Below are positions 7,078 to 13,145 of a DNA stretch of 33,487 bases, in pieces. The position numbers and the translations under genes were made by a program. The notes under the pieces are model-generated. The model saw only the letters and a program-made list of their open reading frames with translations. It was not told the origin of the DNA and searched no databases. Numbering within the stretch: the stretch's first letter is position 1; the number at the start of each line of letters is the position of its first letter. The DNA comes from Acidobacteria bacterium 13_1_20CM_2_55_15 (lineage in GTDB: Bacteria; Acidobacteriota; Terriglobia; 20CM-2-55-15): contig MNKP01000055.1 in the NCBI GenBank assembly GCA_001920875.1, forward strand, positions 1 through 33,487, written 5' to 3'.

Positions 7078-8943
7078 ATGAAAAGAAAAACCCTTCGACT
7101 TTTGAGGCTTTTCATCTTTGTTACCGCATTCTCTCGGACAGTGTATGCCCAAACCAGCAAGTTTATGTCCGTGGACGAAGTGCGTCCGGGCATGAAAGGC
7201 ATCGCCCGGACAGTTTTTCAAGGAACAAAGATCGATGAATTCGAGGTTGAACTGCTGGGCGTATTGAAGAATTTTGCTCCGAAGCAGGACATGATTCTCG
7301 CGCGGCTTTCCGGTGGTCCACTTTCGCACACGGGAGTCATTGCGGGAATGAGCGGAAGTCCCGTCTACGTCGACGGCAAATTATTAGGCGCCGTCGCGTT
7401 TTCGTTTCCTTTTGCTACCGAGCCGATCGCCGGCATTCAGCCCATTCAGCAGATGCTTAGTCTTTTGGACCAGAAGGGCAGCCTGGGAACCCCGCCTCAA
7501 CGCGCGTCCTCCGGAGGATTTCCGGCGGAATCTCCGACAGCCTTTGTCTACAGCCAATTTCGAAAGCTCGAAGCCGGGACGCCGCTCTACCAGTTGATGC
7601 TCCCGCAATCTCTGTTGGCCTCCAGCCCATTCGGGACGGCGGCTTCACCTGCCTCGATGACGCGCATTCAGACGCCTCTGTTCGTTTCCGGAGCTTCTGA
7701 GGCCGCCCTGCAGCAATTTGCGCCCCTCTTCAGCGCGTTCGGTTTTGCACCGGTGCAGGGGGGTGGAAGCGGCAGCGCTGCGGCGAGTGCGGCCGGTCCG
7801 GCGAACATCGAACCTGGGTCGTCGATCAATGTCGAATTAATTCGAGGCGATATCAGTTGGAGTGCCAACGGAACGGTTACCTACGTTGACGGCAACAAGA
7901 TTTATGCGTTTGGCCACCCGAACCTCACCGCCGGCCCGACGGACGTTCCGATGTCGGCAGGATATGTCATTTCGCTGCTTCCGAATCTTCAGAACTCGTT
8001 CAAGCTCGCGGTGCCTTTGAACGTCGTTGGGGCGTTCCAACAAGACCGCTCGACAGGGATTGCCGGAACATTGGGCGCTACTTCCAAAATGATTCCGGTT
8101 AGCGTGTCGGTGAAGTCGAGCTTGAACACAACGAATCGCTACAATTTCGAGGTCGCCTCCGACCGCTTTCTGACAGCTCCCCTGTTGAATTTCATTGTGT
8201 TCAACGCGATTACGGCAAGCGAAAGAGCGCTTGGTGAAATGACTCTGTATGTTTCCGGACAGATTCATTTGAAGAACCAGGAGCCGGTGAACATCGGAAA
8301 TGTGTTCTCCAGCGATATGAATGGGCCGGCAATGGCATCGATCGCGGCAGTGAGCCCGCTCCAGTATCTGCTTATGTCTGGTTATGATGGCGTCCAGATC
8401 GACAACATCGAGTTGGAAATAACCGCGATGGACCGCAAGACCAACGCGCAACTGGAAAGAGTTTCGATAAACAAAGCGGAAGTTGCACCCGGCGAAACCG
8501 TCACGCTCACCGCCTCGATGCGCGCGACGACGGGCGAATCGGTAATCGAACAATACCCGGTGCAAATTCCCGCTGGCTTGCCCGCCGGTCCGATTCAATT
8601 AGTCGTCGGCGACGGAACTACCGTCACCGGCATTGATATCCGTCGCGGCCCAGCCGGTGTCCCGACTGGGCTGAAGCAAGTCATCAGCGAATTGAATAAG
8701 CTGCGAAAGAACGACCGGCTTTACATCAAAGTCGTAAGTTTTCAGCCGGGAGTCGTGATCAGCGGAGAAGAATTTCCTTCGTTGCCCCCATCGATGGCTG
8801 CCGTCATCAACACAGATCGATCTTCCAGCCGGAGCGTATCCGGCATGGCCAATTCGACCATTCGTGAATACGAACTCCCGCAATCGAAGTACGTCATTCA
8901 GGGGCAGAGATCTTTAAATCTCACAATAAAGCCGGCGGGTTAA
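7078..8943 (+). CDS. SpoIVB/S55 peptidase-like exported protein with permuted motif order
   Basis: Signal peptide, 'RPGMKGIARTVFQGTKIDEFEVELLGVL', 'TGVIAGMSGSPVYVDGKLLGAV', later 'GTVTYVDGNKIYAFGHPN'. Confidence 0.75.
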   Translation: MKRKTLRLLRLFIFVTAFSRTVYAQTSKFMSVDEVRPGMKGIARTVFQGTKIDEFEVELLGVLKNFAPKQDMILARLSGGPLSHTGVIAGMSGSPVYVDGKLLGAVAFSFPFATEPIAGIQPIQQMLSLLDQKGSLGTPPQRASSGGFPAESPTAFVYSQFRKLEAGTPLYQLMLPQSLLASSPFGTAASPASMTRIQTPLFVSGASEAALQQFAPLFSAFGFAPVQGGGSGSAAASAAGPANIEPGSSINVELIRGDISWSANGTVTYVDGNKIYAFGHPNLTAGPTDVPMSAGYVISLLPNLQNSFKLAVPLNVVGAFQQDRSTGIAGTLGATSKMIPVSVSVKSSLNTTNRYNFEVASDRFLTAPLLNFIVFNAITASERALGEMTLYVSGQIHLKNQEPVNIGNVFSSDMNGPAMASIAAVSPLQYLLMSGYDGVQIDNIELEITAMDRKTNAQLERVSINKAEVAPGETVTLTASMRATTGESVIEQYPVQIPAGLPAGPIQLVVGDGTTVTGIDIRRGPAGVPTGLKQVISELNKLRKNDRLYIKVVSFQPGVVISGEEFPSLPPSMAAVINTDRSSSRSVSGMANSTIREYELPQSKYVIQGQRSLNLTIKPAG

Positions 8944-8964: not shown

Positions 8965-11169
8965 ATGAAAAGAATTTTTTGGTTATTGCCATTAGCCGCG
9001 GCTTTACCTTTGCTTGCAGTCACGCCGCTGTTCTGGGAAACCCGGACATACGATGATTTTCGGAAGGGAAAATTGTCGAATGTCTCTTTGACCAGCGATG
9101 ACGAACTCATTCTTGCTCCGCGCTTCGATGTCGTATTCAACACCGAGCAAACGCTCGTCTGGTCCGCGATAGCCGATTCCAAAGGAAATATTTATTTAGG
9201 GACAGGCCACGACGGCAAGATCTTCAAGGTGGACCCATCGGGCAGGGGAGCCATGATGGCGGATCTCTCCGAACTGGATGTTCTCGCGCTGGCCATCGAC
9301 GGCAACGATGTTCTCTATGCCGGCACATCCCCAGACGGTACGGTCTACAAGATCGAGAATGGTACGCCCAAAGAATTCTTTAATCCGCATACGAAGTACA
9401 TATGGTCATTGGTCTTTGATAAGCAAGGAAGGTTGCTGGTTGGGACAGGAGATAAAGGCGTCATCTACCGCGTAACGCCGGACGGACAAGGCGCATCGTT
9501 TTATGACACGGATGAAACACACGTTGTCTCTATGGCTATCGACAGGGACGGGAATCTCATTGCCGGCGGGGATCCGAAGGGTTATGTGTATCGCATTTCC
9601 CCGGAAGGAAAGGCATTCGTCTTATACGACTCGGGCATGCGCGAGATCCATTCCGTCGCTGTTGGACCAAACGGAACGGTTTACGCCTCCGCCATCAGCG
9701 GTGAGCCTGCACTTGCACCCGCCCCGGCTCCAGCCACGTCCGGCACCACGGCAAATCCGCAGACGACGGTAACGGTAACTGTCAACGCTGTTACTGCCGA
9801 GCCACAGGACGTCCAAGTCATTGAGCCGGCCGAACCCGTATCTTCTGCGACCCCGCGTGCGCAAACGCGACGCGCAGCTAACGAAGCCAATGCACAGAGC
9901 GCGGTTTTCGAGATATTGCCCGATGGTGTTGTGAATACGTTGTGGCGCTCGCGCGACGAGATGGTGTTCTCGGTTCTGCCCTACGACGGAAAACTCTTGT
10001 TCTCGACCGGAGCGAAAGGGCGCATCTATTCCGTGGAAGGTCCGAGAAACACGACGTTGCTCCTGGAATCGACCGAAGAGCAAACCACGCGCCTGATCCA
10101 GGCTGGAAACCAGCTGTACGCAGCTTCGTCCAACATCGGAAAGCTCTTCCGCATCGGCGATACATCGGCAACATCGGGGACGTACGAATCGACCGTCAAA
10201 GATACGGACGCGGTTTCCTCATGGGGCAAGCTCACGTGGAGATCGGATGATAAAAATCTGATTGAAGTCTCCACAAGAACCGGAAACACGAGTGTCCCGG
10301 ACAAGACATGGTCCGAATGGCAGCCGGTCGATGCCGCTGGCGCAAGCGCAAGCCCCAAAGCGAGATTCGTTCAATGGAAGGCGGCGCTGAAACCCGACGG
10401 CACGAAATCGCCGCGGCTTGGCTCCGTTAAGGTTCCGTACCTCCAGCAGAATTTCAGACCGGAGGTGACAAATATCGACGTCCTGACATCGGGTGTCGCC
10501 CTTCAGAAAGTGCCGCTAAACCAGGGAAACAACGTCAATCCGAACGATCCTGCGACAATTCGCGCGAACGCGCGAGCGGGCCAGCCAAGAATCCAACCCA
10601 TTCCGCCGCGGCGGGCGCCGCAGCGGGGCGCGCAGTCATTCCAATGGACTGCTACAGATAAGAACCTGGACACGCTCACCTATGATCTGTATTACCGGGC
10701 CGAGAATGAACGCACCTGGAAATCGCTCAAGAAAGATCTGGAAGACAATTTTTACACCATCAACTCGGACACGCTGCCCGACGGCACCTATACGGTCCGC
10801 GTCGTAGTGAGCGATCAGCCTTCCAATCCTCCCGACCTCGCGTTAAGAGGGGAAATGGAGAGTCGCCCGTTCACCATCGACAATACGCCGCCGGTGGTGA
10901 CGATGAGCTTAGAGCGTACCGAAAACCGCCGGATTCGAATTGCTATCGAGGCGGTAGATCAAACGTCTACCTTGTCTCAGGCGGAGATTGCGATCGATAC
11001 CGGAGATTGGCGGCCGGTCTTCCCCAAGGACGGCATCATTGATGAGAAGACTGAATCGTTCAGCTATCTGTCCGGAGAGTTGTCGCCTGGAGAGCATGTC
11101 ATCGCGTTTCGCGTGTACGATCAGAACGACAATGCCGGAATGGCCAAATTGGTGGTGAGAATCCCTTGA
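8965..11169 (+). CDS. Exported beta-propeller (WD40/YVTN-like) protein with C-terminal Ig/FN3-like region
   Basis: Signal peptide; repeated blades such as 'IYLGTGHDGKIFKVDPSG', 'VLYAGTSPDGTVYKIENG', 'LLVGTGDKGVIYRVTPDG', 'LIAGGDPKGYVYRISPEG'; C-terminal 'LPDGTYTVRVVVSDQPSN'. Confidence 0.75.
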   Translation: MKRIFWLLPLAAALPLLAVTPLFWETRTYDDFRKGKLSNVSLTSDDELILAPRFDVVFNTEQTLVWSAIADSKGNIYLGTGHDGKIFKVDPSGRGAMMADLSELDVLALAIDGNDVLYAGTSPDGTVYKIENGTPKEFFNPHTKYIWSLVFDKQGRLLVGTGDKGVIYRVTPDGQGASFYDTDETHVVSMAIDRDGNLIAGGDPKGYVYRISPEGKAFVLYDSGMREIHSVAVGPNGTVYASAISGEPALAPAPAPATSGTTANPQTTVTVTVNAVTAEPQDVQVIEPAEPVSSATPRAQTRRAANEANAQSAVFEILPDGVVNTLWRSRDEMVFSVLPYDGKLLFSTGAKGRIYSVEGPRNTTLLLESTEEQTTRLIQAGNQLYAASSNIGKLFRIGDTSATSGTYESTVKDTDAVSSWGKLTWRSDDKNLIEVSTRTGNTSVPDKTWSEWQPVDAAGASASPKARFVQWKAALKPDGTKSPRLGSVKVPYLQQNFRPEVTNIDVLTSGVALQKVPLNQGNNVNPNDPATIRANARAGQPRIQPIPPRRAPQRGAQSFQWTATDKNLDTLTYDLYYRAENERTWKSLKKDLEDNFYTINSDTLPDGTYTVRVVVSDQPSNPPDLALRGEMESRPFTIDNTPPVVTMSLERTENRRIRIAIEAVDQTSTLSQAEIAIDTGDWRPVFPKDGIIDEKTESFSYLSGELSPGEHVIAFRVYDQNDNAGMAKLVVRIP

Positions 11170-13145
11170 AACATATGAAATATCCATTCTTTTCCCTACT
11201 CGTCGCCGCCCTGTGGGGGGCGCCGCTGCATGCGCAACAGCCCCGGGCGATACAGCAAGCCGCGCAGGACGACCAATCGGACCGTCCAACGATCGACGTC
11301 GAAGCATACTCCATTGAAGTGACCCTGGCGCCACAGGAACATCGCCTCACGGGAAGAGCCGACATTAAATTCAAGCAACTCGATCGTAAGACGTACGCGA
11401 CGTTTGACCTTGACCGGCGGTTGCGTGTGGATCGGGCAAGCATCGGAGGGGCCGACGTGAGGTTTCGGCAGTTCGACGTCGATTCCACAGTCGAGATCGA
11501 TCTAAGCAATCAGCAATTCAATAGCAATCCCGTTCTTCACATCGAATATTCGGGCATTCTCGATCCCGAACAAAGCCGCCGTGAGCCCGTCCTGGCGCGG
11601 GTCTCCGAAGACAGCGCGTTCTTGCTGTATGAAGGGAAGTGGTTCCCAATCAATGGCCTTTACCGGGACAAAGCCGATATGCGGCTCAAACTGAACGTGC
11701 CTCCGGAATGGACGCTTGTCACGGACGTCCCAAAAGCAGGAGATGGTTTCGCGAGCAACCAACCCTCGTATTGGGGAACCGTTGCTGCGGGGAAATACAC
11801 GACCACAAGCTACAAATCGGAGAAAGCCGAAATCGCAGTGCATTCGGTCAAGGCCGACGCCGATATTGTCAAGTCGATGGCCGAATCTGTCGGGAAAGTC
11901 TTCGATTATTATTCCCAACGATTTGGCCCGCCTCCTTCATCGAATTTCCGGGTTGTTGAGGTTGAGGGCGCCAACTGGAATGCGCAGTGGTCTATTGGAA
12001 TGTTGCTTCTGCCATCATCGCAGCTGCGCAAGGATTTCGATCTGCCTGCGCTTGCGGCAACCGTAGCGCATCAATGGTTCCCGCTGAAAATCGGAGTCAA
12101 GGATCCGAGCTCCGACGCGTGGCTCATCGACGGTATGGCCCAATTCGCCAGTCTTCTGTACTTCGAGCAAACGCTGTCACCTGCCGAGGCGCAAGAACAT
12201 ATTAAGAAGGCGCTCGTCAAGGCGCTGGCGTACGAAGGCACGACATCCATCCGCCAGGCGGGTGGTTTGGATAAAGATTCACCCGACTACCGCTCGTTGG
12301 TTGAATATAAAGGGGCTTTCGTTTTGAGAATGCTGCGATGGGTTATCGGTGATGACAACTTCAATAAGCTTTTGAGCGCTTATCTGAACCAGTTCGAAAC
12401 TACACCCGTCTCGACAGAGGGTTTTGAGAAGCTAGCGTCGGAGGCCGGCGGCGGGGATTTGGGGTACTTCTTCGATCAGTGGCTGAATGGCAGCGGCATT
12501 CCCGAATTCAAGCTCGAGTACACCGTTTTTCGGCAAAAGGACGGTTACAAAGTTCTGGGACAGGTCAAGCAGGATCTCGATCTGTTCAAGATGCCGGTCG
12601 AATTTCAAGTTCAAACTGATGGCGATCCCGAATACGCTCGCGTTGAAGTTGTGGGCGAATCGAGCGAGTTCGAGGTCAAGACCGAGCGCAAACCGAAATT
12701 TGTGGTTATCGATCCGAGGGAAAAAATACTTCGGATGTCGTCCGATATCCGAATCGCGGTCCTGGTTAACCGCGGCGAGGAACTCGCCAACGAGGGCAAA
12801 TACAACGATGCGATCGATCAGTATCAGAAAGCAGTCGATATTGATTCGCACAACTCGCTCGCGTTGTTCCGAATGGGTGAAGCGCTGTTCGAATTAGGGA
12901 ACCTGCAAGCGGCTTCCGGAATGTTTCAAGAAGCCCTGAATGGGGATCTAAAGCCCAAGTGGGTCGAGGTGTGGGCCTACATCAATCGCGGCAAGATCTT
13001 CGACATTCGCGGTCAGCGTGAGCGCGCTGTGACGGAGTATCAAAAAGCTGCCAATACTGGTGACGATTCCTACGGCGCCAAAGCGGAAGCAGACAAATAC
13101 GTGAAGGAACCTTTCAGACGCGCTGGGAAAACCACGATTGGATAA
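11166..13145 (+). CDS. M1 aminopeptidase-fold protein with degenerate active site and C-terminal TPR
   Basis: 'YSIEVTLAPQEHRLTGRADIKF' N-domain; 'VAHQWFPL...WLIDGMAQF' region aligns with M1 'HELAHQWF...WLNEGFA'; TPR 'GEELANEGKYNDAIDQYQKAVDIDSHNSLALFRMGEALFELG'. Starts at TTG 11166 or ATG 11175. Confidence 0.75.
   Translation: MKHMKYPFFSLLVAALWGAPLHAQQPRAIQQAAQDDQSDRPTIDVEAYSIEVTLAPQEHRLTGRADIKFKQLDRKTYATFDLDRRLRVDRASIGGADVRFRQFDVDSTVEIDLSNQQFNSNPVLHIEYSGILDPEQSRREPVLARVSEDSAFLLYEGKWFPINGLYRDKADMRLKLNVPPEWTLVTDVPKAGDGFASNQPSYWGTVAAGKYTTTSYKSEKAEIAVHSVKADADIVKSMAESVGKVFDYYSQRFGPPPSSNFRVVEVEGANWNAQWSIGMLLLPSSQLRKDFDLPALAATVAHQWFPLKIGVKDPSSDAWLIDGMAQFASLLYFEQTLSPAEAQEHIKKALVKALAYEGTTSIRQAGGLDKDSPDYRSLVEYKGAFVLRMLRWVIGDDNFNKLLSAYLNQFETTPVSTEGFEKLASEAGGGDLGYFFDQWLNGSGIPEFKLEYTVFRQKDGYKVLGQVKQDLDLFKMPVEFQVQTDGDPEYARVEVVGESSEFEVKTERKPKFVVIDPREKILRMSSDIRIAVLVNRGEELANEGKYNDAIDQYQKAVDIDSHNSLALFRMGEALFELGNLQAASGMFQEALNGDLKPKWVEVWAYINRGKIFDIRGQRERAVTEYQKAANTGDDSYGAKAEADKYVKEPFRRAGKTTIG

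Follow-up and report, generated by a model that had tools for sequence, protein, structure and literature searches.

A predicted SpoIVB/S55-type serine protease with its two β-barrels in swapped order, widespread in Acidobacteriota and paired with a β-propeller gene

The window analyzed here, a stretch of 33,487 nucleotides from Acidobacteria bacterium 13_1_20CM_2_55_15 (contig MNKP01000055.1), encodes a 621-residue protein that raises a question of architecture: can an S55 peptidase of the SpoIVB type have the two halves of its domain in reverse order and, if so, is it likely to be an enzyme? The Ser motif TGVIAGMSGSPVYVDGKLLGAV is found at residues 85–106 and the His motif NGTVTYVDGNKIYAFGHPN only at residues 264–282, i.e., the Ser half comes first. 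An earlier note on this DNA had taken this order to suggest a permuted S55 fold outside any sporulation context, and possibly a non-catalytic module. We propose, with a probability of about 0.8, that the protein is an exported, catalytically competent SpoIVB/S55-type serine endopeptidase, in which the Ser barrel has moved ahead of the His/Asp barrel. The proposal builds on the swapped order itself, the homology of both halves to SpoIVB, the invariance of the triad residues, the spread of the family and the pairing of its gene with a neighbor, all of which are observed. The features are collected in Table 1.

Table 1. Features of the permuted S55 gene and its downstream neighbor (positions in the window)
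Feature	Position	Strand	Basis and remarks
Permuted S55 (SpoIVB-like) serine protease gene	7078..8943	+	621 aa; PF05580 match, AlphaFold2 model
Plausible signal peptide, ~residues 1–25 (MKRKTLRLLRLFIFVTAFSRTVYA-Q)	7078..7152	+	Sequence and predicted helix 2–22
Ser barrel (chymotrypsin barrel 2 equivalent), residues 28–130, six strands	7159..7467	+	PF05580 profile 107–194; hhalign to SpoIVB E 1.5e-14; model strands
GMSGSP motif	7345..7362	+	S92 at 7351–7353, presumed nucleophile; aligns with SpoIVB S378
Variable, partly disordered linker between barrels, residues 131–243	7468..7806	+	pLDDT 48–68 at 131–190; poorly conserved
His barrel (chymotrypsin barrel 1 equivalent), residues 244–350, six strands	7807..8127	+	Relatives' PF05580 profile 12–90; hhalign to SpoIVB barrel 1; model of segment against 9LNF
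H280 (FGH), presumed general base	7915..7917	+	147/147; aligned with SpoIVB H236
D323 (QDR motif), presumed catalytic acid	8044..8046	+	147/147; end of fifth barrel strand; aligned with SpoIVB N290
C-terminal α/β domain (~351–451), Ig-like strands (~456–512), tail	8128..8940	+	Model secondary structure
Secreted β-propeller protein, C-terminal Ig/FN3-like region	8965..11169	+	Reg_prop/WD40 and Big_13 matches

The halves of an S55 domain in reverse order

The Pfam family PF05580 matches residues 24–110 of the protein (E 4.3e-9; 37.1 bits against a curated cut-off of 25), a sequence match that is not due to chance. It spans only positions 107–194 of the 210-position profile, namely the Ser half of the domain, and it lies at the N-terminus; a full-length match in the canonical His-then-Ser order was not obtained, the His half coming after the Ser half. 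All 67 of 67 aligned relatives match the same family; in 147/147 relatives aligned colinearly, the His motif comes after the Ser motif. In the PF05580 matches listed for 199 genomes, the profile stretch starts at position 94 or later in every case. A canonical-order paralogue sought in Acidobacteriota with the His-barrel profile was not found: 39 of 40 genomes match, one each, apart from two genomes with two matches.

The His half of the 621-residue protein itself has no PF05580 match, which is confined to the His halves of relatives. When these are scanned alone against Pfam, PF05580 is the family matched by most members (11/147, best E 0.0044). Among the matches listed, three independent relatives align to profile positions 12–90, a stretch complementary to the 107–202 covered by the Ser halves; a scan of the His halves against NCBIfam returned only noise. 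In a profile–profile comparison (hhalign) with a five-sequence SpoIVB alignment, the Ser half aligned with an E-value of 1.5e-14. The His half gave two colinear segments with scores of 22.2 and 21.8, above the top score of 19.6 among 200 column-shuffled controls, and these pair H280 with H236 and D323 with N290 of SpoIVB. A sequence search of the PDB recovered SpoIVB (9LNF) as the sole significant match, for the Ser half only, and the His-barrel profile obtained only chance-level matches there, 9LNF not being reached by sequence for this half.

The AlphaFold2 model of the full protein (pLDDT 88.5, pTM 0.86) has six strands in each barrel, those of the Ser barrel being at residues 40–46, 52–67, 70–78, 95–98, 101–109 and 117–122. 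A fold search with this model retrieves MucD (probability 1.00) and DegS (0.96) across only ~105–110 columns, which is expected if an aligner bound to chain order can cover just one of the barrels. Modelled alone, the His barrel has a pLDDT of 92.5 and, in Foldseek, ranks 9LNF second among 350,542 PDB chains (probability 1.00, E 0.045), with SplF, trypsin, thrombin, MASP-3 and FMDV 3C as lower matches. Since the E-values are modest despite the high probability (best 0.036, range 0.04 to 1), this search supports rather than decides the assignment. Both the whole model and the isolated barrel lead to PA-clan proteases, and the predicted architecture is that of the clan, with two six-stranded β-barrels. 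At the sequence level we regard it as confirmed that the two halves of an S55-type two-barrel domain are swapped in order. The swapped order described in the earlier note is upheld by the split PF05580 match, the hhalign comparison and the His-barrel model; the canonical order in an HMM alignment, which that note had named as counter-evidence, was not seen, a result that favors permutation.

Could the His half be an unrelated β-barrel with a coincidental FGH motif, so that S55 origin holds for the Ser half only? The lack of a PF05580 match in this protein's own His half and the Foldseek E-values of ~0.04 would allow it. We consider it very improbable, given that PF05580 is the Pfam family most frequently found in the relatives' His halves (three independent members, among the matches listed, falling on profile positions 12–90), that both hhalign segments exceed all shuffled controls with H280 facing H236, and that the model of this half alone brings up 9LNF near the head of the PDB ranking. 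A different possibility is an enzyme assembled in trans by domain swapping, in which the Ser barrel of one chain would meet the His barrel of another in an obligate dimer and the order along the chain would be irrelevant. The long disordered stretch of the linker (pLDDT 48–68 at residues 131–190) and the inter-molecule insertions and swapping in SpoIVB crystals (PMC12502668) would accord with such an arrangement. We nevertheless judge it unlikely: the single-chain model, with a pTM of 0.86 and both barrels confident, is compatible with packing in cis.

Catalytic residues

S92, H280 and D323 are each present in 147/147 members at ~27–45% identity, as are G93, S94 and P95, and D258 is present in 146/147. 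In an alignment of 67 members (27–43% identity to the 621-residue protein), 18 columns are invariant, including those of S92, S94, H280, D258 and D323. Alignment to the GDSGGP motif points to S92 rather than S94 as the nucleophile. D323 lies 43 residues past H280, where the fifth barrel strand ends; in chymotrypsin, Asp102 lies 45 residues past His57, directly before the sixth strand. In the modelled fold D323 occupies the position of chymotrypsin Asp102 and is the presumed catalytic acid; the nearly invariant D258 could be an alternative acid in its place.

The earlier note had instead looked for the acid in the segment that reads 'ITDPRLL' in SpoIVB. It was correct in that this Asp is absent, the position being G79 here and Gly in 141/147 members, but its reading that the acidic residue seems absent is not supported, D323 being invariant in 147/147. 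D363 of SpoIVB is ~24 Å away from His236 in the crystal structure, and the crystallographers doubt that it has a catalytic role (PMC12502668); hence, the loss of its equivalent says little about activity. We accordingly rejected the notion of inactivity from the missing 'ITDPRLL' acid, which in 9LNF is remote from the His, D323 being invariant. The crystallographers suggested Thr393 as a substitute catalytic residue of SpoIVB (PMC12502668); its position is A107 here and mostly Ala or Ser in the permuted family. Both replacements, Gly for D363 and Ala or Ser for Thr393, would suit a non-catalytic S55-like scaffold, which would have retained the fold for binding, as in pseudoproteases, and would cleave no peptides. 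Such a scaffold is improbable: pseudoproteases usually lose at least one catalytic residue, whereas S92, H280 and D323 persist through all 147 divergent members, and the 24 Å between D363 and His236 apply to SpoIVB itself. The same points run counter to the earlier suggestion of a possibly non-catalytic module.

In an alignment underlain by a weak profile match, D323 pairs with Asn290 of B. subtilis SpoIVB, and four other SpoIVB sequences have Asn or Ser there. At the acid position of barrel 1, the permuted protease has Asp and SpoIVB has Asn or Ser. The simplest reading of these sequences is that the triad of the permuted family is the ordinary one and that the acid is lacking in SpoIVB instead. 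The deposited chain A of 9LNF reads GMAGAP, both serines of GMSGSP seemingly being Ala; the structure paper describes S378A only (PMC12502668), and other SpoIVB sequences read GMSGSP or GMSGCP.

The protein appears to be an active PA-clan protease of permuted order, and we advance the following mechanism for it. The Ser barrel (residues 28–130) precedes the His and Asp barrel (residues 244–350), with the long variable linker tying the two together. Both barrels would pack into a single active site, S92/H280/D323, as the usual PA-clan charge-relay triad. The enzyme would be exported and would most likely have a specific partner as its target, either in the periplasm or in the cell envelope. Its N-terminal hydrophobic helix, which ends VYA-Q, is a plausible signal peptide, as judged from the sequence and the predicted helix rather than from a signal-peptide predictor; a lipobox-like motif is present in only 4/147 relatives. 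The region from ~351 onward yielded no significant relative in Pfam and PDB sequence searches.

Relation to known proteases and spread of the family

Among the known systems, the closest comparison is SpoIVB (MEROPS S55, PF05580, TIGR02860; PDB 9LNF, Bacillus subtilis), to which both barrels are homologous by sequence and predicted fold. The two share the GMSGSP Ser motif, a GTxTxxxxxxxxAxGH-like His motif and, by prediction for the permuted protein, the character of an exported protease. The permuted protease differs in its reversed barrel order, in the extra C-terminal α/β and Ig-like domains, and in being encoded beside a β-propeller gene rather than in a sporulation context. A PDZ domain was matched neither in the 621-residue protein nor in ten divergent members; among 67 members there was one weak PDZ_2 match (E 0.02). 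An assignment to SpoIVB proper (the TIGR02860 equivalog) was rejected, as the protein scores 34.3 bits against a cut-off of 305.25, has no PDZ match and comes from a genome (~82% complete) in which no Spo0A_C was found. The HtrA-type trypsin-fold proteases MucD and DegS resemble the permuted protease in their PA-clan two-barrel fold, their GxSGxP motif and, as predicted for it, their periplasmic location. Unlike it, they have the canonical barrel order and C-terminal PDZ domains, and a sequential alignment with them covers only about half a domain (109 columns).

The family is close to universal in the phylum, relatives being present in 187/199 Acidobacteriota whole genomes, mostly as single copies that are co-linear along the whole length. 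A scan of named genomes added, among its best 80 loci, three Planctomycetota loci, including one of Candidatus Brocadia sapporoensis, to those of Acidobacteriota. Two permuted S55 copies are present in each of the Acidobacteriota genomes G071, G092, G128, G137, G153 and G169, possibly reflecting a subfamily split. According to an earlier survey, which only counted the family, detection of 'SpoIVB peptidase (S55)' is widespread across Acidobacteria (PMC8841776); the PF05580 proteins that it counted are very probably those of the permuted family. In the open-access literature we found no mention of a swapped barrel order or of a propeller pairing for these proteins, nor of a natural swapped barrel order in the PA clan, for which an earlier report elsewhere is possible.

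No relative was found among plasmids, and the scan of viral contigs recovered only a Bacillota spoIVB. The latter (L085, IMGVR_UViG_3300048919_000251, 1–2132) is followed by spo0A and is probably host DNA flanking a provirus. Likewise, records labelled as plasmids from Monoglobus (L082), Subdoligranulum (L083) and Sedimentibacter (L084, 13.7 kb, with recN-spoIVB-spo0A) bear genes of the core sporulation set and are probably chromosomal fragments with the wrong label. One genome titled as an Actinomycetota MAG (L127) bears a permuted S55 member on a contig named WN_Acidobacteria, and is likely mislabelled.

Gene neighborhood and a candidate partner

Real spoIVB genes adjoin spo0A. In the present genome, which is ~82% complete, a Spo0A_C domain was not found; hence, the setting is probably not one of sporulation, in agreement with the earlier note. 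What accompanies the permuted gene is a propeller gene: in 36/40 Acidobacteriota loci spread over the phylum it is followed, on its own strand, by a homologue of the propeller gene, within 300 bases in 32 of the 36. The propeller gene adjoins the S55 gene in 53/70 testable named loci, including all three from Planctomycetota. No other neighbor is kept to this degree. Loci with no propeller nearby include several from Pyrinomonadaceae and Blastocatellia, and the propeller is therefore not strictly required in cis.

This pairing suggests that the propeller protein is a substrate or regulator of the permuted protease; within the proposed mechanism, it might be the substrate, an inhibitor or a recruiting factor. 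By analogy with SpoIVB, a signalling protease that cleaves a partner, the conserved gene pair would be easier to reconcile with a dedicated partner than with turnover of proteins in general. The next gene in the window (11166–13145), which shares 4 bases with the propeller gene, codes for a protein that resembles M1 aminopeptidases and has TPR repeats at its C-terminus; in the other loci the gene is not conserved at this place. It has AATVAHQWF in place of the usual HELAHQWF and DGMAQF in place of NEGFAEY; being without HEXXH, it looks like a pseudo-peptidase by sequence.

Beyond the proposal of an active permuted protease, a wider evolutionary reading, whose chances we regard as evenly balanced, would make this family an ancient, natural circular permutant of the PA clan. 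It would be near-universal in one phylum, have a full His-Asp-Ser triad and form a two-gene envelope system with the propeller; it would represent the canonical-triad branch of S55, and SpoIVB would be a derived form in which the acid was lost. Few protease groups are as large as the PA clan; if confirmed, the swapped order would characterize a gene carried almost universally in a major soil phylum rather than being a curiosity of a single genome. It also touches on an open puzzle, namely that the SpoIVB structure is without a credible third catalytic residue, while in the permuted family the residue opposite Asn290 is an invariant Asp. Finally, for this core gene of Acidobacteriota, on which we found no functional study, the propeller neighbor provides a concrete candidate for a substrate or regulator.
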